DNA of 50,517 nucleotides from Clostridiales bacterium CHKCI006. GTDB lineage: Bacteria > Bacillota_I > Bacilli_A > Erysipelotrichales > Coprobacillaceae. The stretch lies in assembly GCA_900018345.1 (NCBI GenBank), contig FCNA01000068.1:1-50517 (forward strand), given 5' to 3'. Shown here piece by piece: positions 34,245 to 50,403 of this stretch. Under the pieces are notes generated by a model. That model did not search any database and was not told the origin of the DNA. It saw only the letters and a program-made list of their open reading frames with translations. Position 1 is the stretch's first letter, and the number at the start of each line of letters is the position of its first letter. The position numbers were made by a program, and so were the translations under genes.

Positions 34245-35099
34245 ATGGAATATCCAGTTGATTTACATATTCACAGCTATTATAGTGACGGCGTGGACAG
34301 CCTGGAAACGATCCTGGAAAAAGCCAGCCATCGTGGCTTACAAGCCATTGCGATCACTGACCACGATGTCTTTTGCCAGATAGACCAGTATCCGGCACTT
34401 TCAGAACGCTATCATATCGATATCATACCGGGCCTGGAAGTGAGCTGCGTCGATGCAAGCAACGGCCGCAAGGTCCACATCCTTGCCTATGGTTTGACCA
34501 AAGATCGTGCACCGCACCTCAAACCGCTGCTCGATCAATTTCTTGATCATGCACAAGCAATGCGCCAACAGATGATCGAGGACATCAATCAACGCCTGGG
34601 ACCGGTGCTCAGTTACGCAGCCATCAAAAAAGAGTTTCCCCACAGCATCCTCTATAAGCAGCAGATTGCCATTCATCTTTCCCGATATCTGGAAACGCCC
34701 TATCAGGAAGTCTATCAGCGCTATTTCAGAGGACCGGGGAGTCTGGATGAACGTTACCCCGTTCGTTTCAATGATGTCTATACCGTCATTCAGGCCATCT
34801 TAGCGGATGGCGGTATTCCGGTCTTAGCCCACCCGCGGACCTATCGTTCGATGGAACGCATTGAGACCTACATTCATTGGGGACTCAAAGGCATTGAATG
34901 TTCGCACCCATCCTACCGTCCAGGTGATTTACAGATCGTCCTGCCCTATATTGAAAAATATCATCTTCTGAAAACAGGCGGCAGCGACTATCATGGTGCA
35001 CTGTCTTTATCCAATCAGCGCCAACTAGCGAAGTTTGGTGTAGAAATACCCGATTATTTACATTTAAAGGAGGAACTAAGTCATGATGTATCTGACTAG
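34245..35099 (+). CDS. PHP-domain phosphoesterase (TrpH/nucleotide phosphatase-like)
   Basis: 284 residues. Metal ligands of the PHP fold are visible: DLHIHSYYSDG (7-17), TDHD, GLEVS, LAHP and GGSDYHG near the C-terminus. The arrangement is that of TrpH/YciV-type enzymes that hydrolyse 5'-phosphates from 3',5'-bisphosphates or short RNA. The start is supported by GTGAGGAAAAAAG and a TATAAT at 34214-34219. It overlaps the phosphatase gene by 17 bases, so the two are coupled. Substrate not determined. Confidence 0.85.
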   Translation: MEYPVDLHIHSYYSDGVDSLETILEKASHRGLQAIAITDHDVFCQIDQYPALSERYHIDIIPGLEVSCVDASNGRKVHILAYGLTKDRAPHLKPLLDQFLDHAQAMRQQMIEDINQRLGPVLSYAAIKKEFPHSILYKQQIAIHLSRYLETPYQEVYQRYFRGPGSLDERYPVRFNDVYTVIQAILADGGIPVLAHPRTYRSMERIETYIHWGLKGIECSHPSYRPGDLQIVLPYIEKYHLLKTGGSDYHGALSLSNQRQLAKFGVEIPDYLHLKEELSHDVSD

Positions 35100-37436: not shown

Positions 37437-37464
37437 AAAAAAAGAGATGGTTTGCCATCTCTTT
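37437..37464 (-). terminator. Terminator of the hydrogenase operon
   Basis: AAAGAGATGG and CCATCTCTTT pair around TTTG; the minus strand continues TTTTTTT. It overlaps the hydA stop. Confidence 0.8.
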
Positions 37465-39236
37465 TATGAATCGTATTTAGAGGAGAGATCAAATTCCTCC
37501 TGTTTAGCGTATGTTGTATGCAGGAGCTCATGCGCTAAATGTGAATTTGGCTCGCCTAAGAAATTCTTATACAAATCGATGATCTGAGGATTCTGGTGGG
37601 ACTTATGGATCGTCAGCGCTTCATCCTCATTGTATAAAGCTTTCGCACGCAGCTTCTTATAGTCCACTCCACTGTTACGTGTCATGGCATTGACATAAGG
37701 CTGACCACCGCCGTTGATACAACCACCAGGGCATCCCATGATCTCAATGAAATGATACTTGGAAGTACCGGCTTTGATTTCATCCAGTAACGGTTTGGCC
37801 ATCTTCATGGAGTGCGCCACAGCGACTTTCAGGATCTTGCCACCAATCATGATCGTGCATTCTTTCAGTCCGCCATCCGTTCCACGTACCTTGCGGTAAT
37901 TGAAGTTATCCAGATCTTCTCCGGTCAGGACATCGGCGACTGTACGCAAGGCGGCTTCCATCACACCACCGCTGGCACCGAAGATAACACCGGCCCCGCT
38001 GTATTGACCAAAGAGGTCCGTATCGAATTCTTCATCAGGCAAGCTGGCAAAATTGATACCAAACATCTTGATCAGTTTGGCGCATTCGCGTGTCGTCAAT
38101 ACCGCATCGACATCCTTGATGCCGTCTTTGATCATCTGAGGACGTTCTTTTTCGCCTTTTTTAGCCACACAAGGCATGATGCTGACCACATAAATATCTT
38201 TTGGATCAATGTTATGCACCTTGGCATAATAGGATTTGACCATCGCACCTAACATCATGTGTGGTGATTTACAGCTGGAAAGATGACCTAATAATTCAGG
38301 ATATTCTTTTTCAATATAGTTGATCCAGCCTGGTGAGCAGGAAGTGATCATTGGCAGGCAATCGTTATTTTTCAAACGTGAAATAAACTCATAACCTTCT
38401 TCCATGATCGTCAGGTCAGCACCATAGTTCGTATCATAAACTTTATCAAAGCCAAGCATCTTTAAAGCTGCGACCATTTTGCCTGTCACACGCGTACCGA
38501 TCGGCATGCCGAATTCCTCGCCTAAAGCAGCTCGAACAGCCGGTGCAGTCTGAACCACCACATGCTTATGTGGATCATTGAGCGCTTCGACAACATAATC
38601 AATTTCTTCTTTTTCGGTCAACGCTCCCACCGGACAGACATTGATACACTGACCACATTGAATACAATTGACGTCTTTTAAAGACAGATCATAGATTGGT
38701 CCGACCTTGGTCTTGAAACCACGCTCCATATAACCTAAGACACCCAGACCCTGCAGCTGGCGGCAAGCCTCTATACAGCGTCCGCAAAGGATACACTTCG
38801 ATGTATTTCGAACGACACCATTGGAGAAATCGTCATAAGTTGGTTCCGTCTTGGAGCCTTTATAATAATCTTCACGCACACCTAATTCCTGGCTCAAACG
38901 CTGCAGCTCACAGTTCGTGTTGCGGATACAGGATAAGCAATCCTTAGAGTGATTGGAAATAATCAGCTCAACGACATTCCGTCTGGCATCCAGTACGCGT
39001 TTGGTATGCGTATATACTTTCATTCCCGGTGCAACAGGATACACACAGGAAGCACACAGGTTCTTTGCACCTTCTACTTCGACCTGACAAACACGACAAG
39101 CGCCATGCCCGGTCAGATCTTTCAAATAACAGAGCGTTGGAATATGAATGCCGTTGATTCTGGCAGCTTCCAGAATCGTCATCCCTTCCTCAGCCTGGAC
39201 TTCTCGATCATTGATATATAAGTTAATCTTTCCCAT
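37464..39236 (-). CDS. hydA: [FeFe] hydrogenase catalytic subunit HydA
   Basis: 590 residues from ATG 39236 (an upstream GTG is inside the ribosome site). Domains: N-terminal [2Fe-2S] (Cys36-Cys64), His-ligated cluster HSKDCLSCIRNTNC (96-109), two [4Fe-4S] motifs (CILCGRCIEACR, CIQCGQCINVCP), then the H-cluster domain with TSCSPGW (298-304), MPCVAKK (354-360) and MGCPGGCINGGGQP (500-513). It makes or uses H2 with HydB and HydC as an NADH/ferredoxin-linked complex. L1 has Ser at the second Cys of the usual TSCCPxW. It is the last gene of the operon, with a terminator after it. Confidence 0.93.
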   Translation of the reverse strand: MGKINLYINDREVQAEEGMTILEAARINGIHIPTLCYLKDLTGHGACRVCQVEVEGAKNLCASCVYPVAPGMKVYTHTKRVLDARRNVVELIISNHSKDCLSCIRNTNCELQRLSQELGVREDYYKGSKTEPTYDDFSNGVVRNTSKCILCGRCIEACRQLQGLGVLGYMERGFKTKVGPIYDLSLKDVNCIQCGQCINVCPVGALTEKEEIDYVVEALNDPHKHVVVQTAPAVRAALGEEFGMPIGTRVTGKMVAALKMLGFDKVYDTNYGADLTIMEEGYEFISRLKNNDCLPMITSCSPGWINYIEKEYPELLGHLSSCKSPHMMLGAMVKSYYAKVHNIDPKDIYVVSIMPCVAKKGEKERPQMIKDGIKDVDAVLTTRECAKLIKMFGINFASLPDEEFDTDLFGQYSGAGVIFGASGGVMEAALRTVADVLTGEDLDNFNYRKVRGTDGGLKECTIMIGGKILKVAVAHSMKMAKPLLDEIKAGTSKYHFIEIMGCPGGCINGGGQPYVNAMTRNSGVDYKKLRAKALYNEDEALTIHKSHQNPQIIDLYKNFLGEPNSHLAHELLHTTYAKQEEFDLSSKYDS

Positions 39237-39245
39237 TGTCCACAC

Positions 39246-41039
39246 CTACTTTCTCACTACGGCACCAAAGTGACAAGCTGTCAGACAGTTACCACACTTG
39301 ATACATTTTTCAGGATCGATATGATAGATTTCTTTACCGACCTGACCGGAAATCGCGCTGACTGGACAATTGCGGGCACAAAGTCCACATTTACGGCAGA
39401 GATCAGGATCGATTTCATATTTCATTAAGGCTTTACATACACCTGCAGGACAGCGTTTATCCACGACATGCGCAATATATTCATCTCTAAACTGATGCAG
39501 TGTGGATAACACCGGATTTGGTGCAGACTGACCTAAACCACAAAGGGCCGTTTCCTTGATCGTGTTGCATAAGCTTTCCAGCTCATCCAAGGTATCCAGA
39601 GTGCCGCGTCCCTCACAGATATCATTCAATAATTCCAATAGACGCTTCGTACCGACACGACAAGGTGTACATTTACCACAGGATTCATCCACAATGAAGT
39701 CCATATAGAAACGCGCCACATCGACCATACAGTTGTCTTCATCCAAGACGATCATGCCGCCAGATCCCATCATGGATCCAAGCTTGACTAATTCATCAAA
39801 GCCGATTGGTGTATCCAGCTGTTCTTCGGTCAGACAGCCACCGGATGGGCCACCCGTCTGCACGGCTTTGAAACGTTTACGGTTAGGACAGCCACCACCA
39901 ATTTCATAAATGACCTCTCGCAAGGTCGTCCCCATAGGCACTTCGACCAGACCCGTATTCGTAATCTTACCGCCTAAAGCAAAGACTTTCGTACCAGGAG
40001 ATGATTCTGTTCCGATCGAGCGGAACCAATCTGCACCATGGTTGATGATCTGCGCAATATTGGCATATGTCTCAACGTTATTAATGATGGTTGGTTTGCC
40101 CCAGACACCGGAATGAGCCGGATAAGGTGGTTTTGGATTTGGCATCCCACGTTCCCCTTCGATTGATTGGATCAACGCCGTTTCCTCACCACAAACAAAG
40201 GCACCGGCACCTAAACGAATTTCGATATCAAAGTCAAAGCCACTGCTGAAGATATTCTTGCCTAATAAGCCTAATTCCTCCGCCTGCGAAATCGCCGTTT
40301 TCAAACGATCGACCGCAATCGGATATTCGGCACGAATATAGATATAGCCGTGATGCGCGCCGATCGCATACCCGGCAATGGCCATCGCTTCTAAGACGGA
40401 ATGTGGATTTCCTTCGAGAATAGAACGGTCCATGAAAGCACCAGGATCCCCTTCATCTGCATTACAGATAACATATTTTTCATCACCTGGTTCATTCAAA
40501 GCAAACTGCCATTTACGTCCGGTAGGGAAACCGCCCCCACCGCGACCACGCAGACCGCTCTTGGTAATTTCATCCACAACTTCCTGAGGTGTCATTTCTG
40601 TCAACACTTTGCCTAAGGCCGTATAACCATCTTTAGCGATGTATTCATCAATGTTTTCAGGGTCGATGACACCGCAATCATTGAGCGCTACACGTCTTTG
40701 CTTCTCATAGAATTTCGTCTTATTGACATCATGAATCTCAGATGTATCCATATCTGTCTCATTGATCATCAGACGATGTACTGGACGCCCTTTATAGAAA
40801 TGCTCCTGTACGATCTCACGGACATCTTCTTCATGCACGCCCTTATAGATGATATTATCCGGATAGATGGATACGTTTGGTCCATGCCCACACAGACCTA
40901 AACACCCCGTTTTTAAGACGGAAACTTCGTTTTCCAGACCGATGGAACGGATCTCTTCCTCAAATTTCTCCACCAAACTTGAGGAATTACCGATACTACA
41001 CCCAGTTCCGGCACAAACTAATACTTGTATTCTTTCCAT
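39246..41039 (-). CDS. hydB: NADH-linked hydrogenase subunit HydB (NuoF-like)
   Basis: 597 residues. An N-terminal thioredoxin-like [2Fe-2S] region has four Cys (VCAGTGCSIG, TGCLGLCGHG). The NuoF domain has the FMN/NADH motifs GRGGGGFPTGRKW and ADEGDPGAFMDRSILEGNPH and the cluster site SCGKCTPCRVGT. Two C-terminal [4Fe-4S] motifs follow (CRKCGLCARNCP, CIKCGNCLTACHF). It passes electrons from NADH to HydA and is thought to bifurcate with ferredoxin in this family. Stop and HydA ribosome site lie ten bases apart. Confidence 0.93.
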   Translation of the reverse strand: MERIQVLVCAGTGCSIGNSSSLVEKFEEEIRSIGLENEVSVLKTGCLGLCGHGPNVSIYPDNIIYKGVHEEDVREIVQEHFYKGRPVHRLMINETDMDTSEIHDVNKTKFYEKQRRVALNDCGVIDPENIDEYIAKDGYTALGKVLTEMTPQEVVDEITKSGLRGRGGGGFPTGRKWQFALNEPGDEKYVICNADEGDPGAFMDRSILEGNPHSVLEAMAIAGYAIGAHHGYIYIRAEYPIAVDRLKTAISQAEELGLLGKNIFSSGFDFDIEIRLGAGAFVCGEETALIQSIEGERGMPNPKPPYPAHSGVWGKPTIINNVETYANIAQIINHGADWFRSIGTESSPGTKVFALGGKITNTGLVEVPMGTTLREVIYEIGGGCPNRKRFKAVQTGGPSGGCLTEEQLDTPIGFDELVKLGSMMGSGGMIVLDEDNCMVDVARFYMDFIVDESCGKCTPCRVGTKRLLELLNDICEGRGTLDTLDELESLCNTIKETALCGLGQSAPNPVLSTLHQFRDEYIAHVVDKRCPAGVCKALMKYEIDPDLCRKCGLCARNCPVSAISGQVGKEIYHIDPEKCIKCGNCLTACHFGAVVRK

Positions 41040-41050
41040 GGGCCTTCCTC

Positions 41051-41419
41051 CTACTTCTTATATTGACCGATCGTATATTCTTCCACGACCTCATCATTTT
41101 TTAAATGCTTTAAAGCCACCTGTTTGGCTTTCTCTGAATTCATCAGTACGTATGTCGTCTTTTCTCCTTTGGCATCAAAGACTTCTACGATGGGCTCTAA
41201 GGAACATAAACCAATACAGCCCGTCTGTGTGACCGTAACCGGAATATTCAGACGTGACACTTCTTCTACTAAAGTATTCAAAACAGGTCTGGCACCGGCG
41301 GCAATACCACACGTCGCCATACCGACAACGACACGATATTTCTGTTCTTCACCTAAGCGCATCGTCATCTTGCGTTTAGCTTCTTCACGAATCTTTTTTA
41401 AATCTTCCAATGATTTCAT
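41051..41419 (-). CDS. Thioredoxin-like [2Fe-2S] ferredoxin
   Basis: 122 residues. The segment YRVVVGMATCGIAAGARPVL with Cys37, then VTQTGCIGLCSLEPIVEV with Cys68 and Cys72, is the small thioredoxin-fold ferredoxin seen in hydrogenase operons. Only three Cys are present in the whole protein, fewer than the usual four, so cluster binding here is unusual or needs another ligand. It is coupled by a four-base overlap to the ATPase gene before it. Probable electron-transfer partner of HydB. Confidence 0.82.
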   Translation of the reverse strand: MKSLEDLKKIREEAKRKMTMRLGEEQKYRVVVGMATCGIAAGARPVLNTLVEEVSRLNIPVTVTQTGCIGLCSLEPIVEVFDAKGEKTTYVLMNSEKAKQVALKHLKNDEVVEEYTIGQYKK

Positions 41420-41949
41420 TGCCCGATTCCCTCCTTAATATATGTCTTCAGCCAAAGCAAGACTTCCGGTGTCAGAATGCTGACCCCTTCCAGTATTTCT
41501 TTGACCTGGTCCGTATCTAAATCAAAGACACGTGCATCGTCCTCATAGTGAAAACGGATGGTCTGCGCTTCGCCTGCCTGGATGATCGTGACCAGGCTCT
41601 CGGCAATATCGCCCAACGGGGGCGTATCCAAATGTGAGCGCTGGTAGCTGGCCTCGATCAGCGTCCCCTGATGGGGTGCCGATTCCAGTTTAAAGCTCCC
41701 ATTAGCCATCAAGGCTCCTTGCTTGAACAAAGGAATCCCCAGTCCTACTTTACGCGTCGTTCGCGTGGTGAAGAAAGGATCCTGAACTTTCTCGACCATC
41801 TGATCGTCCATGCCTTCCCCGTTATCCTTCACGGAAAGCAGCAGCAGATCGCGTTTTTCCGAATTGATGAGGACAATTTCGATCAATGAGGCCATGGCGC
41901 GTATCGCGTTATTGGCTATATCTAATAAATACATCGCTAGATCTTCCAT
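41416..41949 (-). CDS. Histidine-kinase-like ATPase, no kinase core
   Basis: 177 residues. The HATPase_c fold is visible: NAIRAMASLIEIVLINSE, SVKDNGEGMDDQM (G1 box), DPFFTTRTTRKVGLGIPLFK (G2/F box) and HQGTLIEASYQ. There is no DHp domain, phospho-acceptor His or membrane part, so it cannot be a normal two-component kinase. It sits in the hydrogenase operon with a PHP enzyme, DRTGG proteins and an RsbW-like protein. Probable signalling or switch ATPase; partner unknown. Confidence 0.82.
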   Translation of the reverse strand: MEDLAMYLLDIANNAIRAMASLIEIVLINSEKRDLLLLSVKDNGEGMDDQMVEKVQDPFFTTRTTRKVGLGIPLFKQGALMANGSFKLESAPHQGTLIEASYQRSHLDTPPLGDIAESLVTIIQAGEAQTIRFHYEDDARVFDLDTDQVKEILEGVSILTPEVLLWLKTYIKEGIGQ

Positions 41950-42650
41950 GCCCGACCTCCTGATAATAAATAATAATCTTCCAAAGAAAGCAGCTGACCT
42001 GCTTCCTGAATATCATACAAGTGATGTGCATCACTATTTTTCAAAATGATTTTATTTTTTAAATGTGGATATGTCTTTTGAAAACGAGCCACTTCCATTT
42101 CGCTGCATAGTTCGACCCCTTCTATCTGCAAGTGTTCAGGAAACGTGTCATAGACCATTAAGTACCCGTACTTGCGATACAGATGAGCCAGGACGACGCT
42201 GCCTCCCAGGCGATGAACCATCTCGCTGACGGCTTCCAGTCCGACATCCAGGCTCGTTGAGATCAAACGGTTTTCCTCGAAATCCACTAGCCGATCTGTA
42301 ACATCAAAGATGAGCTGCTTACCGTAATAAACAGGATCATTTGGAATACGGATCAGATGATCGTCCAGGAAATGCTGGAAAGTCAGCAACGCATCGAAAG
42401 ACAGATCCTCATGAAAATAAGCTAAAACATGAATGTTCTCAAGGGTTTGGATCTCCACCCCATATAAATAATGGATCTTATTTTGGGCTACTTCCTTTAA
42501 ACAGAAAAGCTGTTTACAGGAATTATGATCAGTCACTGCAATCAGATCCAGTCCTACCAGGCAGGCCATGTTGACGATATTGTTGAGGGTCATATCATCA
42601 TCACTGCATGGTGAAAGGGCTGAGTGGATATGCAGATCGTAATTGATCAT
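41937..42650 (-). CDS. PHP-domain phosphoesterase of the hydrogenase operon
   Basis: 237 residues. Metal ligands: DLHIHSALSPCSDDD (5-19), TDHNSCKQ, GVEIQT, and KNSDAHHLYDI near the end. It is a compact PHP phosphatase or nuclease. The ATGA start overlaps the DRTGG gene stop, and the next gene overlaps its end. Its conservation inside hydrogenase operons, together with DRTGG and ATPase proteins, suggests a regulatory phosphate reaction, not yet defined. Confidence 0.84.
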   Translation of the reverse strand: MINYDLHIHSALSPCSDDDMTLNNIVNMACLVGLDLIAVTDHNSCKQLFCLKEVAQNKIHYLYGVEIQTLENIHVLAYFHEDLSFDALLTFQHFLDDHLIRIPNDPVYYGKQLIFDVTDRLVDFEENRLISTSLDVGLEAVSEMVHRLGGSVVLAHLYRKYGYLMVYDTFPEHLQIEGVELCSEMEVARFQKTYPHLKNKIILKNSDAHHLYDIQEAGQLLSLEDYYLLSGGRAWKI

Positions 42651-42976
42651 AAGCCGGCCTTGACCAGCCAGGCGGCCAGTTCATAAGCCTCGCCCTGATA
42701 AGTATAAAGCGTAATGGCATTCTCCCTAGCGCGCCTAAGCATCTCTTCGGATGGGATAGCTCCCTCGACAAAGACGATCGCTGGACAATCTGCCAACTCG
42801 GCCACAGCAATCGCATTGACCTGATTTTGCACCGTTAGCCAAAGTGTCTTCTCATCCAGATGGGCCATGACCCGGCTCAACAGATCACTGATATAGACAT
42901 GGCTGATTTCATGATCGGCGCCATCCCCCTCAATACAGCGAATCCCATCCAGCTTTTCAAGCTCACTTAATCGCAT
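42647..42976 (-). CDS. DRTGG-domain protein (second copy)
   Basis: 109 residues from ATG 42976, immediately after the stop of the hydrogenase-like gene. The DRTGG fold is suggested by YISDLLSRVMAHLDEKTLWL, AIAVAELADCPAIVFVEGAI and ENAITLYTYQGEAYELAAWL. The domain occurs in serine kinase-type and acetyl-transfer regulators and is thought to bind ligands. It is similar in plan to the first DRTGG protein at 44557-44907. Together they may form a heterodimer. Confidence 0.75.
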   Translation of the reverse strand: MRLSELEKLDGIRCIEGDGADHEISHVYISDLLSRVMAHLDEKTLWLTVQNQVNAIAVAELADCPAIVFVEGAIPSEEMLRRARENAITLYTYQGEAYELAAWLVKAGL

Positions 42977-42978
42977 GC

Positions 42979-44157
42979 TCATTCCTCTTTTCTTACCCGA
43001 CATAAATGTAATCCGGCTTTCCCATCCACGATCGCCCCCGCCAGGGCCCGACAGTTGGGATAGCCACAAGCGCCGCAGTCAAAGCGCGGCAGCTTCTCTA
43101 ATACTTCATTGACAGAGCGGTAACGCTGCATCTTTAATGGCATACTTGTTTTGTCCATGGCTAATTCTCGATGCCCCGACATTTCTGTCTGGGAGAGCGC
43201 AGCCACATGCTTACCGGCAAGATAGGATAATTTTTCCATATGCACCTCACCGATAAATGGATTGGACCAGAGATAACTGCCACCGATACAACCGCCCTGA
43301 CAGGCGAATAACGCCAACAAACCGATTTTATCTAAAGCGCCGAACTCCGCGGCCTCCAGAGCCTGAATACAATGGTTGACTCCATCGACGGCGATGATCG
43401 GTTTTTTCTTCTTGGCATAGTGATAGAAATCACTGACATTGCTCATCAGCCCTTCCCGATTGAGCGTAACTGGAAAACAAGCCTTGCCTTTTTGTCGATT
43501 CGCAGCCGGAAAGATCTGTGAAATCGCCACGGCATGATCGATCGCAGAAGCCTGATTACCAAAAGGAGCCTTCGCCAGCGCCATCTTCGCCAAGCAGTCA
43601 CATAAAGAATAAATACCGATGCGCGGATACTTTCCTTCCAGACGCGCGCGCACCTGGCGTGCTGCGACCTCACAAGGATATTCCAGATCCAGCAGATGTT
43701 CAAACAACATCGGATAATTCTTCTCGATCAACGCGTTGATGCTTGGACAAAAAGATGTGATGCATAACTGATCGGCCACTTCCATCCGACATATTCCTTC
43801 CAGGTATAAGGCACCTTCAATGTCACTGTAATCGACCACTTCATCAAAGCCTAAAGACTGAATTGCCTTCAACATCTGACCCGCTTCCTCTAAGGAAGCA
43901 AACTGAGCAAAGAAACTTCCTGGTACCAAAGCGACCTTATAATCATATGAGGATAAGGTCTTTTCCAGTGGAATCTTTTCCACCGTCAGGCCACCTTTCG
44001 GGCACCCTGCAACACAAATTCCACAGTCGATACATTGAACCGGATCGATCTTGACGATCCCATCCTCTAAATGAATCGCTTCCACCGGACAGATCTTCAT
44101 GCAATGCAGACAATGCGTACAGCTCTCGAGAGTATAAGTCAAACGTGGTTCAGTCAT
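42979..44157 (-). CDS. Hydrogenase-like protein with degenerate H-cluster motifs
   Basis: 392 residues from ATG 44157 (AGGATGGTGTTCC before it). Two [4Fe-4S] motifs (CTHCLHCMKICP, CIDCGICVAGCP) precede an H-cluster-like domain: TSFCPSI (134-140), LCDCLAK (185-191) and FACQGGCIGG (284-293). A C-terminal Fe-S domain has CGACGYPNC. The four H-cluster Cys positions look present, but the proton-relay Cys of TSCCP is Phe. It matches sensory (group D-like) hydrogenase homologues. It is embedded between DRTGG and RsbW-like genes, so a redox or H2 sensor role is likely. Confidence 0.85.
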   Translation of the reverse strand: MTEPRLTYTLESCTHCLHCMKICPVEAIHLEDGIVKIDPVQCIDCGICVAGCPKGGLTVEKIPLEKTLSSYDYKVALVPGSFFAQFASLEEAGQMLKAIQSLGFDEVVDYSDIEGALYLEGICRMEVADQLCITSFCPSINALIEKNYPMLFEHLLDLEYPCEVAARQVRARLEGKYPRIGIYSLCDCLAKMALAKAPFGNQASAIDHAVAISQIFPAANRQKGKACFPVTLNREGLMSNVSDFYHYAKKKKPIIAVDGVNHCIQALEAAEFGALDKIGLLALFACQGGCIGGSYLWSNPFIGEVHMEKLSYLAGKHVAALSQTEMSGHRELAMDKTSMPLKMQRYRSVNEVLEKLPRFDCGACGYPNCRALAGAIVDGKAGLHLCRVRKEE

Positions 44158-44560
44158 GGAACACCATCCTGATATGCGTTCCCTCACCTGAAGAGGCAAT
44201 GTCAAACGCACTGGACATTCGTTTCATATTGACCAGTCCCATGCCCGCCCCAAAGCCAAATTCGCGTGCTTTTTTACTGGCGGTCGAATACCCCGGCTGC
44301 ATGGCAAGATCCAGATTGGGAATCCCTGGACCGACATCATCACAAGCTAAAGTAATGATGCCTTCATCATCCACTTCCAGACAGAGCGTTCCACCTAAAG
44401 AATGGATGATCAGGTTGATCTCACTTTCATAGCTCGACACAGCAACCCGCTTGATCATCTGCGGTCCAAAGCCCATCTGTTTCAGGGTCTTTTTGATCTG
44501 ACTGGAAACACGTCCGGCTGAATCGTAATCGTCTTTTTGCACTTCATAACATATCTTCAT
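44150..44560 (-). CDS. RsbW/RsbT-like ATPase (anti-sigma-type)
   Basis: 136 residues from ATG 44560 (ATGA overlap with the DRTGG gene). GHKL motifs: SSYESEINLIIHS (N-box like), ACDDVGPGIPN (G1), and GFGAGMGLVNMKRMS (G2). RsbW-type proteins are Ser kinases and anti-sigma factors; here no sigma or STAS partner is adjacent. Its place next to a degenerate hydrogenase suggests a switch that senses cluster state. Partner unknown. Confidence 0.84.
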   Translation of the reverse strand: MKICYEVQKDDYDSAGRVSSQIKKTLKQMGFGPQMIKRVAVSSYESEINLIIHSLGGTLCLEVDDEGIITLACDDVGPGIPNLDLAMQPGYSTASKKAREFGFGAGMGLVNMKRMSSAFDIASSGEGTHIRMVFHD

Positions 44561-44907
44561 GGTCTTAACCCCATTCCATAAAGGATCCCGCATGCTTCAA
44601 ACATCGTCAGATGCGTATTGAAGATCGAAATGCCCAGTTCATCGGCCATTTCCATCATCTTGGCATCCGGCTGTTTATTACGTACATAGATAATGACCGG
44701 AATATCCAGCATCTCAGCTGTCCTGAGGGTCTGTACATTCGCCAGTCCCGTCAGAAAGAGCACATGTTCTCCTTCATGAATCATCGCCAGTGCATCGCTC
44801 ATTAAGTCACTGGCAAAAACATGTTTAAAATCCTGTTCCAGAATGTGCGGATCATTCATCTGAACGGCTTCGGCCTGTAATTCTGCCTTAATTTGGGCTA
44901 ACTTCAT
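44557..44907 (-). CDS. DRTGG-domain protein (first copy)
   Basis: 116 residues from ATG 44907 (AAGGAAGAAAGCA before it). The fold is seen as FKHVFASDLMSDALAMIHEG, HVLFLTGLANVQTLRTAEML and ISIFNTHLTMFEACGILYGM. It is directly downstream of hydC with a 20-base overlap and coupled to the RsbW-like gene. DRTGG domains bind small ligands in other proteins. It is probably a regulatory partner; no enzymatic activity is visible. Confidence 0.78.
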   Translation of the reverse strand: MKLAQIKAELQAEAVQMNDPHILEQDFKHVFASDLMSDALAMIHEGEHVLFLTGLANVQTLRTAEMLDIPVIIYVRNKQPDAKMMEMADELGISIFNTHLTMFEACGILYGMGLRP

Positions 44908-45391
44908 TGCTTTCTTCCTTCATATATTCCAGAACGAGTAATTTCAATTCATCCAGCTGTTTCTTACAGCCAAACACCGTACCGTCCACACTGACGACCG
45001 GTGCCAGCCCACAAGCGCCGACACAACGTGTCGCATCAATGGAAAATAAGCCGTTAGGACTTGTCCCATTGACCGGAGCTCCCGTCATCGAAACTAACAG
45101 ATCCAGGATCGTCTGTGACCCATTGACATAACAGGCCGTTCCCAGACATACGCTGATGACATGTTTTCCTTTAGGTTCGGTCGTAAACTGTGAATAGAAA
45201 GTCACGACCCCATACACCTTAGAAATCGGTTCACCCGTTGCTTTCGCGATCATTTCCATGGCTTCAAAAGGAATGTAACCCAGCTGATCCTGCACATCAT
45301 GCAGCATCAGTTTGACCGGGCCCATCTTTCCTTTGTGTTTGGCCACAATGGACTCAATGGTCGCGATAGATGCTTGATTGAGTTTTTTCAT
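44888..45391 (-). CDS. hydC: NADH-linked hydrogenase subunit HydC (NuoE-like)
   Basis: 167 residues from ATG 45391 (GAGAGGTGTTAAC before it). The thioredoxin-like [2Fe-2S] fold has the NuoE pattern: Cys82 and Cys87 (SVCLGTACYVNG), Cys123 and Cys127 (TRCVGACGLAPVV), after YIPFEAMEMIAKATG and GVVTFYSQFT. It relays electrons between HydB and HydA. It is the first gene of the ten-gene operon. A TATAAT at 45424-45429 and a GTTAG-N6-CTAAC dyad lie upstream. Confidence 0.92.
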   Translation of the reverse strand: MKKLNQASIATIESIVAKHKGKMGPVKLMLHDVQDQLGYIPFEAMEMIAKATGEPISKVYGVVTFYSQFTTEPKGKHVISVCLGTACYVNGSQTILDLLVSMTGAPVNGTSPNGLFSIDATRCVGACGLAPVVSVDGTVFGCKKQLDELKLLVLEYMKEESNEVSPN

Positions 45392-47359: not shown

Positions 47360-48025
47360 TCAAGGTGAAACGGCACCCACCTCGGTCATGACAACATAAG
47401 CCAGGTCTGTATTCTGACTCACACGTTCTATAAAAGCCGTGAGACCTTCTTCAGGAGCGATCGTAAAAACACTTGCTTCATCGATCTCAGAATTACCCTT
47501 AGTCGACCAAACTGCCGCTAAGACATGATACCGACCATCTAAGGCAATCCTTTCGGGTTGATACAAATGGAAAGTGATCCCCGTTTCATCAAATATATCT
47601 TCGCCCCATGCCTGGTCTGCTTCAACCATCGATCTGGCATAACCCAATACAGAACCATCTTCTGCCTCGTTATAAAGCGCTGTGGATACATCACAGATTC
47701 CGATATCTGCCTGATGAAGATGCAATCCCACAAGCATTTTATTCATCGGGTTTGCTTCGGAGAGATACTGTGGGATTAGATACTCCTGGACCACCCTGCC
47801 TTCATCAATTGCCCAGACAAAAACAGATCCTTGATTATAATTCTGAAACTCGATACCGACTAGTTCAGTCGAAGACATCCTGGCTATCTCCTGTTCCTGT
47901 TCCGTAAAAGTCAATGCCACCGCCTGAGGTTCATCTGTCACAGCCTCTTGATTTTCAGGTGTGCTGGTTGAACAGGCCCCTAACAGCAAGCTGGCACACA
48001 TCAGCATCAATAATTTTTTCTTCAT
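47360..48025 (-). CDS. Lipoprotein, paralogue 2 (unknown function)
   Basis: 221 residues from ATG 48025. Lipobox LLLGAC (Cys about 18), then a Ser/Thr/Glu linker. The mature region shares long blocks with the next gene upstream: FTEQEQEIARMSS, IEFQNYNQGSVFVWAIDEGR, EASVFTIAPEEGLTAFIERV, NTDLAYVVMTEVGA. It is anchored outside the cell. The fold is probably a beta-rich sensor or binding domain, not recognised. Tandem duplication with the following gene. Confidence 0.8.
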   Translation of the reverse strand: MKKKLLMLMCASLLLGACSTSTPENQEAVTDEPQAVALTFTEQEQEIARMSSTELVGIEFQNYNQGSVFVWAIDEGRVVQEYLIPQYLSEANPMNKMLVGLHLHQADIGICDVSTALYNEAEDGSVLGYARSMVEADQAWGEDIFDETGITFHLYQPERIALDGRYHVLAAVWSTKGNSEIDEASVFTIAPEEGLTAFIERVSQNTDLAYVVMTEVGAVSP

Positions 48026-48110
48026 GCTTCTCCCTCCCATCGTTCTCCACACATATAGCGCATCAACCAATCATGAGTTCATTTTCTGACAGGATGCTTG
48101 CGAAAGGAGA

Positions 48111-48749
48111 TTAAAACGTCGCGCCAATCTCCGTCATGATGACATAAGCAAAGTCAGTGTTGTCACTCACCCGGGTAAAGAAATCGGTCAAACTTTCTTC
48201 AGGGTTGATCGTAAAAACACTCGCTTCATCGATAAAACGGGCGACTTGTGCTTGCCAAAAAACAGCCAATACCTGGTACTTGCCCTCTAATACAACCCTT
48301 TCTGGCTGATACAAATGGTAAAAAGCATTTCCCTCTTCGCCCCAGACCTGGGCTGCTTCAACGGTTTCCAGAGATGCAACATAAGGTCCTGTGTCTGCCT
48401 GACGGAAGATCTCCGTCGTCACATCATAAGTCATATAGTTTGCATCCGAACCGCTAAATCCGACCAGTATCTTGGTCACCTGATCTTCTTCGGTAATATA
48501 GAAAGGGGACAGATACTCCTGTGCCACTTTGTTATCATCGATGGCCCAGATAAATACAGATCCCTGTGTATAGTTTTGAAACTCAATGCCGATGATCTCG
48601 CTAAAGGTCAGTCTGGCAATTTGTTCCTCCTGATTCGTAAAAGTGATCGCTGTAGCTTGCGGAACAGATCCTTCTGCTTCAGCAGGGCCATTCGAACAAG
48701 CCCCAAACAGTAAACACGCACATATCAGCATCAACCATTTTTTCTTCAT
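48111..48749 (-). CDS. Lipoprotein, paralogue 1 (unknown function)
   Basis: 212 residues from ATG 48749 (GGAGGTAAAA upstream). Lipobox LLFGAC, then FTNQEEQIARLTFSE and IEFQNYTQGSVFIWAIDDNK, closely matching the neighbouring lipoprotein across the mature part. It is separated from its twin by about 85 bases, which fits an unequal duplication. No family recognised. A dyad at 48816-48843 lies upstream and may be a control site. Confidence 0.8.
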   Translation of the reverse strand: MKKKWLMLICACLLFGACSNGPAEAEGSVPQATAITFTNQEEQIARLTFSEIIGIEFQNYTQGSVFIWAIDDNKVAQEYLSPFYITEEDQVTKILVGFSGSDANYMTYDVTTEIFRQADTGPYVASLETVEAAQVWGEEGNAFYHLYQPERVVLEGKYQVLAVFWQAQVARFIDEASVFTINPEESLTDFFTRVSDNTDFAYVIMTEIGATF

Positions 48750-49215
48750 TTTTACCTCCATTTCCGCCCGACTACGTCGATCGGACACAAATATTTAATC
48801 AAAATTCAAATTTATTATTATCCTAAGCGATTTTAGAATAATACTAACAAATTTGTTTTTATCATAAGTAATATCTGCAATATCAATATTTTGTTCGATT
48901 AATAACAAATTTTATTTTCACACTTCTCCCTCCATTCTACCCAAGAAATGCCTCATTGAAATTCATTTACACTTTCTTATCTCATAATAGATGCCAAGCA
49001 GGACAACTAAGAGGATGCGACTTTGTATCTTGATTATCTCTAGATCCCATCATGTTCCAATAAAGCGGATTGTCCCGTTCCGATTTGATAAACTGTATTC
49101 ACCAAAAACACAATGATTTGTTCAGCAAAACTAACAACAAATAAGCCGACACATACACTAGTCCATTTTAAAATTTTGATTCATGTACCAGAAGATTTCC
49201 TGCACATCTCTCCCT
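48750..49215. other. Intergenic region with one operator-like dyad
   Basis: About 470 AT-rich bases without a supported gene. The only strong feature is the dyad TATTATCCTAA-GCGATT-TTAGAATAATA (48816-48843, one mismatch), about 70 bases upstream of the lipoprotein start. Short open frames on both strands lack ribosome sites. Confidence 0.6.
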
Positions 49216-49832: not shown

Positions 49833-50403
49833 CTATGCCTTCCTATTCATCACCAGACCTATCAAAACTAGAATCGTCAATAACATACAGAGTCCTAACA
49901 AATTCCATTCAGATAATAGTCCGCTGACCATCAAAGCCGCTGGTGTCAGACTGTGACTGACGACATTGAAATAAGCATATACACGTCCCATCATCTGATC
50001 ATCTACGGTAGCCTGCAAATGCGCATTGAAAGGAATGTTGAATAAGGGTGACATGATTCCAACGCCCAACATCGTCACCATCAGTATTCCAAGAAATAAC
50101 CAGGACGAGACATACCCACTAAAAAACAGCTGATAATCGAGCATCAAGAGGATGAAACAAACCAGGTAGCAGGAAAAACTGACCAAACTTTTCCAAAGAC
50201 ACATGATTCTTTTTGACCAGATAAGCAGAACAGAAAATAGAACCCACTGTCATTGATGCGTTCAATAAGGATAAACGCGTGACCCCTAACTCAAAGTGAT
50301 GGATCAAATAAGGTAAAATAACTGAACGCAGGGGATTGATCGTCACATTAAAGATAATGGCACAAAGGAAGATACGCATAATGTCCTGACTGTTGAACCG
50401 CAC
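49833..50403 (-). pseudogene. MFS transporter remnant (5' truncated and frameshifted)
   Basis: Two frames together give the second half of an MFS transporter. Frame 1 (50403 to about 50178) has RIFLCAIIFNVTINPLRSVI and SLLNASMTVGSIFCSAYLVK. Frame 2 (about 50174 to 49833) has SSWLFLGILMVTMLGVGIMS and the C-terminal spans with DDQMMGRVYAYFNVVSHSLT. The switch falls in an A5 run (plus strand 50174-50178), so a one-base indel is likely. The first six spans are missing upstream. It is not expected to be functional. Confidence 0.78.

Follow-up and report, generated by a model that had tools for sequence, protein, structure and literature searches.

A GHKL-ATPase and DRTGG gene block within hydABC operons of Bacilli, a candidate switch for the electron-bifurcating hydrogenase

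Hydrogenases of type M2e, also called group D, have genes upstream of those for trimeric bifurcating hydrogenases, separated from them by kinase genes, and have been proposed as sensory regulators (Carere et al. 2012, PMC3561251). In Table 6 of that study, the M2e genes and the hydABC trio are five locus tags apart, for example TTE0887/TTE0892-0894 and Cthe_0335/Cthe_0340-0342 (PMC3561251), and Cthe_0339, between the M2e gene and hydABC, is annotated as a histidine kinase (PMC3990059). Group D proteins, whose definition includes a Cx2Cx4Cx16C motif and the lack of a PAS domain (PMC8163306), are treated as putative H2 sensors with an unknown signalling path (PMC8163306, PMC13104023). The hyd operon of A. 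woodii encodes a histidine-kinase-like ATPase, HydE, that is absent from the purified enzyme, and a small extra protein, HydD (PMC3315566). Here, we analyzed a 50,517-nucleotide stretch (contig FCNA01000068.1; the window) from Clostridiales bacterium CHKCI006, an Erysipelotrichales member related to Beduini, in which genes for DRTGG-type proteins, GHKL ATPases, a PHP phosphoesterase, and a hydrogenase-like protein (HydX) lie within a hydABC operon. To our knowledge, in-cell control of flavin-based electron bifurcation has not been established, and we know of no demonstrated signalling path for the sensory group C and D hydrogenases.

The operon runs on the minus strand from window position 45391 down to 37464, in the order hydC-drtA-rsbW-hydX-drtB-php-hatp-fdx-hydB-hydA (Table 1). 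At roughly even odds (a probability of about 0.5), we propose that the GHKL-ATPase/DRTGG block is a nucleotide-driven, two-stage DRTGG switch for HydBC/Fdx, with PHP as its reset and HydX as an optional input. An earlier note on this DNA, made from its letters alone, had named seven genes between hydC and hydB-hydA: two DRTGG proteins, an RsbW-like ATPase, a degenerate hydrogenase, a PHP phosphoesterase, a kinase-like ATPase without a kinase core, and a three-Cys ferredoxin. Open reading frames (ORFs) and matches to Pfam and NCBIfam confirmed all seven in place and bore out the family names; the RsbW-like protein and both DRTGG proteins scored below curated cut-offs. The overlapping starts and stops that the note described were read from the sequence at all seven inner junctions, with overlaps of 20 nt (hydC/drtA), 4 (drtA/rsbW, ATGA), 8 (rsbW/hydX), 4 (hydX/drtB), 4 (drtB/php), 13 (php/hatp), and 4 (hatp/fdx). 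Downstream of fdx, hydB follows within 11 nt and hydA then within 0 nt. Since the junctions overlap, translational coupling of the operon genes is likely. The starts of hydX, rsbW, and drtB are most likely at 44157, 44560, and 42982, which are not the longest-ORF starts.

The block is conserved in its arrangement and tied to hydABC. In a set of up to 121 Erysipelotrichales loci, in which some genomes were entered twice and the loci are not all independent, the ten-gene order was identical wherever a locus was long enough to reveal it; thus, the arrangement is not due to chance. The exceptions were contig ends, split frames, extra matches outside the operon, and five loci with other hydrogenases or ferredoxins. 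We also surveyed 295 genomes, all of the class Bacilli, with Clostridia judged only from the locus-tag spacing in PMC3561251. The block, full or reduced, was present in 34 of these genomes, with drtB and hatp in all 34, drtA and php in 32 (one pair being a remnant), and hydX in 15. A hydA of the NF040763 type was found over the cut-off in 84 genomes, and in 103 at E<1e-100. The earlier note had expected the families to go with hydABC and had set beforehand, as what would refute this, their occurrence mainly without it; in 33 of the 34 genomes, the block lies just upstream of an NF040763-type hydA on the same contig, and in the other (G035) the contig breaks inside hydB. Yet the majority of hydABC operons do without the block. 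In three genera of family f19, drtA-rsbW-hydX-drtB-php-hatp stand together upstream of hydC-fdx-hydB-hydA, and these six genes therefore constitute a unit distinct from the genes of the enzyme. Viral contigs contained no relative. In one locus (L046, 8531-15942, of genome G061), drtA, hydX, and hydA are each split into two frames, probably by sequencing errors or as an early pseudogene.

Comparison of the 34 genomes revealed three states: 15 carry HydX, 16 lack HydX in an otherwise identical order, and three have only drtB-hatp. In 14 loci of the second kind, from families f3, f6, f9, f20, and f21, the order is exactly hydC-drtA-rsbW-drtB-php-hatp-fdx-hydB-hydA (the rsbW of L219 was confirmed by a separate check), and two Erysipelotrichales genomes, G020 and G035, also have the HydX-less order. 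Of the three minimal genomes (G139, G302, and G284), G302 has an intact drtB-hatp together with stop-riddled remnants of drtA and php. One further Erysipelotrichales genome, G018, has lost the whole block and retained hydABC; its fdx, identified by eye and without a Pfam match, is a 99-aa frame with an fdx-like start but no cysteine motifs. On a tree of HydB, seven changes of state are needed, the HydX-containing genomes do not form one clade, and the minimal state is reached three times. In the surveyed loci, hydX never occurred without drtA-rsbW, every intact drtA was accompanied by rsbW, and every drtB by hatp. Together, the pattern of loss and the absent combinations suggest an order of dependence, read from few events, in which drtB-hatp comes first, drtA-rsbW-php second, and hydX last. 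Since 16 genomes keep the same operon without it, HydX is not core but optional within the block. Inspection of the Bacilli survey by eye gave no pattern of a group C HydS in place of a missing HydX.

The block is also kept beside HydA proteins that have lost their H2 site. In family f9, the linked HydA lacks H-cluster ligands in three of the five genomes (L215, L216, and L219), and in a fourth (L218) it lacks the GGVMEAALR loop, which is part of the pocket; the cysteines of the electron-transfer domain are retained in all four. These four HydA proteins are hydrogenase large subunits within bifurcating operons. Since dS was saturated, we used only identities and dN, in a comparison that includes L217, whose HydA is intact. 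One part of the locus evolves slowly (DrtA 89-96%, HydB 82-94%, Fdx 83-92%, HydC 69-89%, and RsbW-like 66-88% identity) and another fast (H-domain 45-56%, DrtB 48-58%, PHP 50-62%, and HATP 62-72%). Two control pairs whose HydA is intact showed an H-domain as conserved as the N-domain. By these identities, the part of the module that evolves slowly follows HydB, HydC, and Fdx, not the H2 site. Given its presence, with a conserved DrtA, beside an H-cluster-dead HydA, the block probably works at the HydBC/ferredoxin electron-bifurcating part and not at H2 itself. Since the f9 block outlives the H-cluster ligands of HydA, the block at its core is probably not a sensor of H2 or of H-cluster state. 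Thus, the sensor circuit for H2 or cluster state in the earlier note stands as a co-inherited block with a plausible regulatory role, but its H2-sensing part sits poorly with the optional HydX and the lost H-site of f9.

We examined the predicted proteins for intact folds and active sites. DrtA scored 18.8 bits against PF07085, below the cut-off of 25.2, and DrtB was likewise below it. The predicted structure of DrtA (pLDDT 92.6) has the DRTGG fold, as its best Foldseek match was 2ioj, 'Pfam DRTGG' (TM 0.82, E 6e-6). Invariant among aligned members are DLMSD, TGL, T63, D68, and R76-K78 in DrtA and the DLLS motif in DrtB. The RsbW-like protein scored 39 bits against TIGR01925 (SpoIIAB; E 6e-10) and 39-49 bits against the anti-sigma equivalogs, for a cut-off of 135. 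Its GHKL ATP-binding motifs are complete, since E56...N60...H64 and D86-x-G-P-G (with G88 and G90) are invariant in all aligned members, as are G115, G117, and G119 (residues counted from a longer ORF start at 44593). A STAS-type partner for this protein was looked for and was unsupported by the fold of DrtA in Foldseek, and the conserved block of the surveyed loci contains no sigma factor or STAS gene. HATP and PHP each pass a family cut-off of 26.4 bits (Table 1). HATP has the motifs N14, D42xGxG, and PFxTTRTTRKxGLG; its 177 aa comprise only the ATPase domain and a conserved C-terminal extension of ~75 aa, and it lacks a dimerization (DHp) domain with a phospho-acceptor His, in agreement with the ATPase without kinase core of the earlier note. 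The PHP metal ligands (H7, H9, H42, E66, H74, H156, D207, and H209) are invariant or nearly so, except that H74 is Asp in 10 of the 16 HydX-less members. The (near-)invariance of RsbW-like E56, N60, and D86-x-G-P-G, of HATP N14 and D42xGxG, and of the PHP ligands, both with and without HydX, argues for functional ATPases and a functional phosphoesterase.

HydX has two N-terminal [4Fe-4S] motifs (C13 C16 C19 C23 and C42 C45 C48 C52) and a C-terminal Cx2Cx4Cx16C motif (C361-C364-C369-C386), all invariant, and Pfam detected no PAS domain in it. In the H-domain, C137, C188, C286, and C290 are invariant and are candidate holders of the [4Fe-4S] part of the H-cluster. The structures nearest to its model (pLDDT 91.4) are [FeFe]-hydrogenases (query TM about 0.55-0.66), and profile-to-profile alignment with HydA gave a probability of 99.6%. 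As the earlier note had it, the protein is degenerate: the Erysipelotrichales form is truncated by ~45 H-domain residues that include the GGVMEAALR loop, and the position of the proton-transfer Cys, CpI C299, is F136 in the window (A137 in TamHydS) and also Phe in nearly all HydX members. At the position of CpI M353, where Ser or Thr is well conserved in M2e proteins, the window HydX and most Erysipelotrichales members have Cys (C186 in the window), and the f12 and f19 members have Ser. Since the window protein departs from M2e at M353, we class it by sequence as group D-like, not as a full group D (M2e) member.

In Fdx, three cysteines are kept in nearly all members and the second of four is replaced by G42, leaving it short of the four-Cys set of thioredoxin-like [2Fe-2S] ferredoxins. 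Its best matches in the PDB are the N-terminal domains of HydB-type subunits; the nearest, that of StnB, has the same three-Cys pattern in a printed alignment. Since these are its nearest solved relatives, Fdx is best assigned to the enzyme set, as a HydD-like protein, rather than to the signalling block in which the earlier note placed it. It nevertheless decays where the module is lost (L197).

In the switch that we propose, DrtB and HATP, retained beside the enzyme when other block genes go, would be the output stage, and DrtA, the RsbW/SpoIIAB-like ATPase, and PHP, which are lost together, would be the regulatory stage. DrtA with the RsbW-like protein and DrtB with HATP may be working pairs, in which each ATPase would switch its DRTGG partner, either through phosphorylation or through ATP-dependent binding, with PHP resetting the state of the DRTGG proteins. 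These would in turn set the activity or the electron partition of the HydBC/Fdx flavin unit, and HydX, a partly degenerate group D-like Fe-S protein, could add an H2 or redox signal where it is present. We infer phosphate transfer, HydBC/Fdx as the target, and regulation rather than assembly. A more specific version, that the DRTGG/GHKL/PHP module gates the split of H2 electrons between NAD+ and ferredoxin at HydB-HydC-Fdx, with H2 sensing as an optional add-on and the module kept without H2 chemistry, is one that we offer tentatively, as a possibility on the doubtful side.

Several points weigh against a two-stage switch. In f9, DrtB, PHP, and HATP change at nearly the pace of the decaying H-domain, and by identity strong constraint is clear only for the DrtA/RsbW half. 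The hierarchy of loss is based on few independent events. The Ser of DLMS/DLLS may be a general DRTGG feature and so lends phosphorylation no specific support, and HATP could be a chaperone-type ATPase with a role in assembly. Most hydABC operons lack the block, which is thus unneeded for making the enzyme generally, an observation that fits both regulation and assembly.

Assembly is the main rival to regulation. Here, the GHKL ATPases would be small chaperones, the DRTGG proteins adaptors that load Fe-S, FMN, or HydC/Fdx onto HydB, and HydX a scaffold homologue of HydA. The GHKL fold is common to chaperones too, the block is likely co-translated with the enzyme, and its retention where the H-site of HydA is dead is as expected of an assembly module. 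Further, the authors of the A. woodii study left open 'assembly or signalling' for HydE (PMC3315566). Against this, most Bacilli hydABC operons lack the block though HydB and HydC are homologous throughout, G018 keeps hydABC after losing it entirely, and a PHP phosphoesterase with an anti-sigma/serine-kinase-like ATPase suits signalling better. We consider an assembly role unlikely, if a serious contender.

A circuit in which HydX with a complete H-cluster senses H2, and the kinases and PHP relay the signal to operon expression, has in its favor the group D features of HydX (two [4Fe-4S] motifs, Cx2Cx4Cx16C, no PAS domain, C299 replaced) and the behavior of group D TamHydS, which holds an H-cluster and whose structure responds to H2 (PMC8163306, PMC13104023). 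Also consistent with H2 sensing, the group C HydS loci in Bacilli have a SpoIIE-type phosphatase instead. However, 16 otherwise complete operons lack HydX, the Erysipelotrichales form has lost the GGVMEAALR loop with the rest of the ~45 H-domain residues and has Phe for C299, the module outlasts H-cluster loss in HydA, and the conserved neighbors include no sigma factor, STAS protein, or response regulator, making this circuit quite improbable. Sigma-factor partner switching, in which the RsbW-like protein would be an anti-sigma factor, as its resemblance to SpoIIAB/RsbW suggests, and DRTGG proteins would replace STAS antagonists, is very hard to sustain with scores of 39-49 against 135 bits, a block that contains neither a sigma factor nor a STAS gene, and DrtA Foldseek matches that are DRTGG and HPr-kinase N-domains, not STAS.

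Table 1. Genes of the operon, with positions in the window
Gene	Product or family	Position	Strand	Evidence
hydC	NuoE-like thioredoxin-like [2Fe-2S] subunit; first gene of the operon	44888..45391	-	PF01257 133 bits
drtA	First DRTGG-type protein, 116 aa	44557..44907	-	Weak Pfam match, AlphaFold model, conservation
rsbW	RsbW-like GHKL ATPase	44150..44560	-	SpoIIAB-like; catalytic residues invariant
hydX	Truncated group D-like [FeFe]-hydrogenase	42979..44157	-	PF02906 54.7 bits, PF04060 45.8 bits
drtB	Second DRTGG-type protein	42647..42982	-	Pfam 18.0 bits, paralogy to drtA, conservation
php	PHP-family phosphoesterase	41937..42650	-	Pfam 32.8 bits, metal-ligand set
hatp	GHKL (histidine-kinase-like) ATPase without DHp/H-box	41416..41949	-	HATPase_c 47.6 bits
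fdx	Three-Cys thioredoxin-like [2Fe-2S] protein, HydD-like	41051..41419	-	C37, C68, C72
hydB	FMN/NAD-binding subunit; N-terminal [2Fe-2S], C-terminal 2x[4Fe-4S]	39246..41039	-	
hydA	Group A bifurcating-type [FeFe]-hydrogenase	37464..39245	-	NCBIfam NF040763 885 bits

The window HydA contains TSCSPGW, with Ser replacing the second Cys of the TSCCP motif; this is a known variant, as it also occurs in A. woodii HydA1 in a printed alignment. Near the operon, a second PHP-like gene (34245-35099, plus strand) matches the php profile at about 46-53 bits. Upstream of the operon are two similar tandem lipoprotein-like genes (47360-48788, minus strand), probably a duplication, and two overlapping frames at 49833-50403 (minus strand) resemble a single transporter gene that a frameshift has split.

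For the control of the best studied bifurcating enzyme, this fixed and separable gene set, which decays stepwise, supplies candidates by name, an order in which they depend on one another, and deletion variants made by nature. The question is thereby opened to direct tests in gut bacteria that can be cultured, and in clostridia with apparently the same cluster.

Among known systems, DrtA shares its fold with the DRTGG regulatory domains of a CBS-pyrophosphatase (3l2b), AF1212 (2ioj), and phosphotransacetylase, but here the DRTGG proteins stand alone beside GHKL ATPases, with no CBS or catalytic domain. By its titles, the DRTGG domain literature mostly concerns pyrophosphatase, phosphotransacetylase, and Ap4A; in the open literature searched, DRTGG and hydrogenase came up together in one paper, which names each once. 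The RsbW-like protein is a small single-domain protein with the E-x3-N and DxGPG motifs of the GHKL serine kinases RsbW, SpoIIAB, and RsbT; unlike them, it has no STAS or sigma partner and falls below the family cut-offs. The group C HydS and SpoIIE/PP2C loci (HydDB C3; Thermoanaerobacterium hfs) likewise combine a hydrogenase-like sensor with serine phosphorylation machinery, but with a PAS domain and a phosphatase in place of the kinase-like ATPases, DRTGG proteins, and PHP found here. In four of our loci (L192, 8613-11697; L191; L193; and L195), the gene for a PAS-containing group C HydS has a small [2Fe-2S] protein gene before it and a SpoIIE-type phosphatase gene after it; this phosphatase counterpart of the kinase-type module lies directly upstream of hydABC in L192 and L195. 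HydD and HydE of A. woodii, by their published description, resemble the minimal state (hatp-fdx), in a hyd operon that differs in having five genes. Closest are the group D (M2e) systems, which share the architecture and position of HydX and whose five-tag spacing matches the gene count here (PMC3561251); they differ in that HydX is here further degenerate, and optional in Bacilli. The DRTGG, PHP, and RsbW-like genes beside group D hydrogenases are not discussed in the literature searched. Thus, where the earlier note took the circuit logic to be undescribed, the sensory idea had already been published (PMC3561251, PMC8163306) and the association is partly known, while the full module, its separability, its ladder of loss, and its retention next to a dead H-site are new, as far as we have searched.

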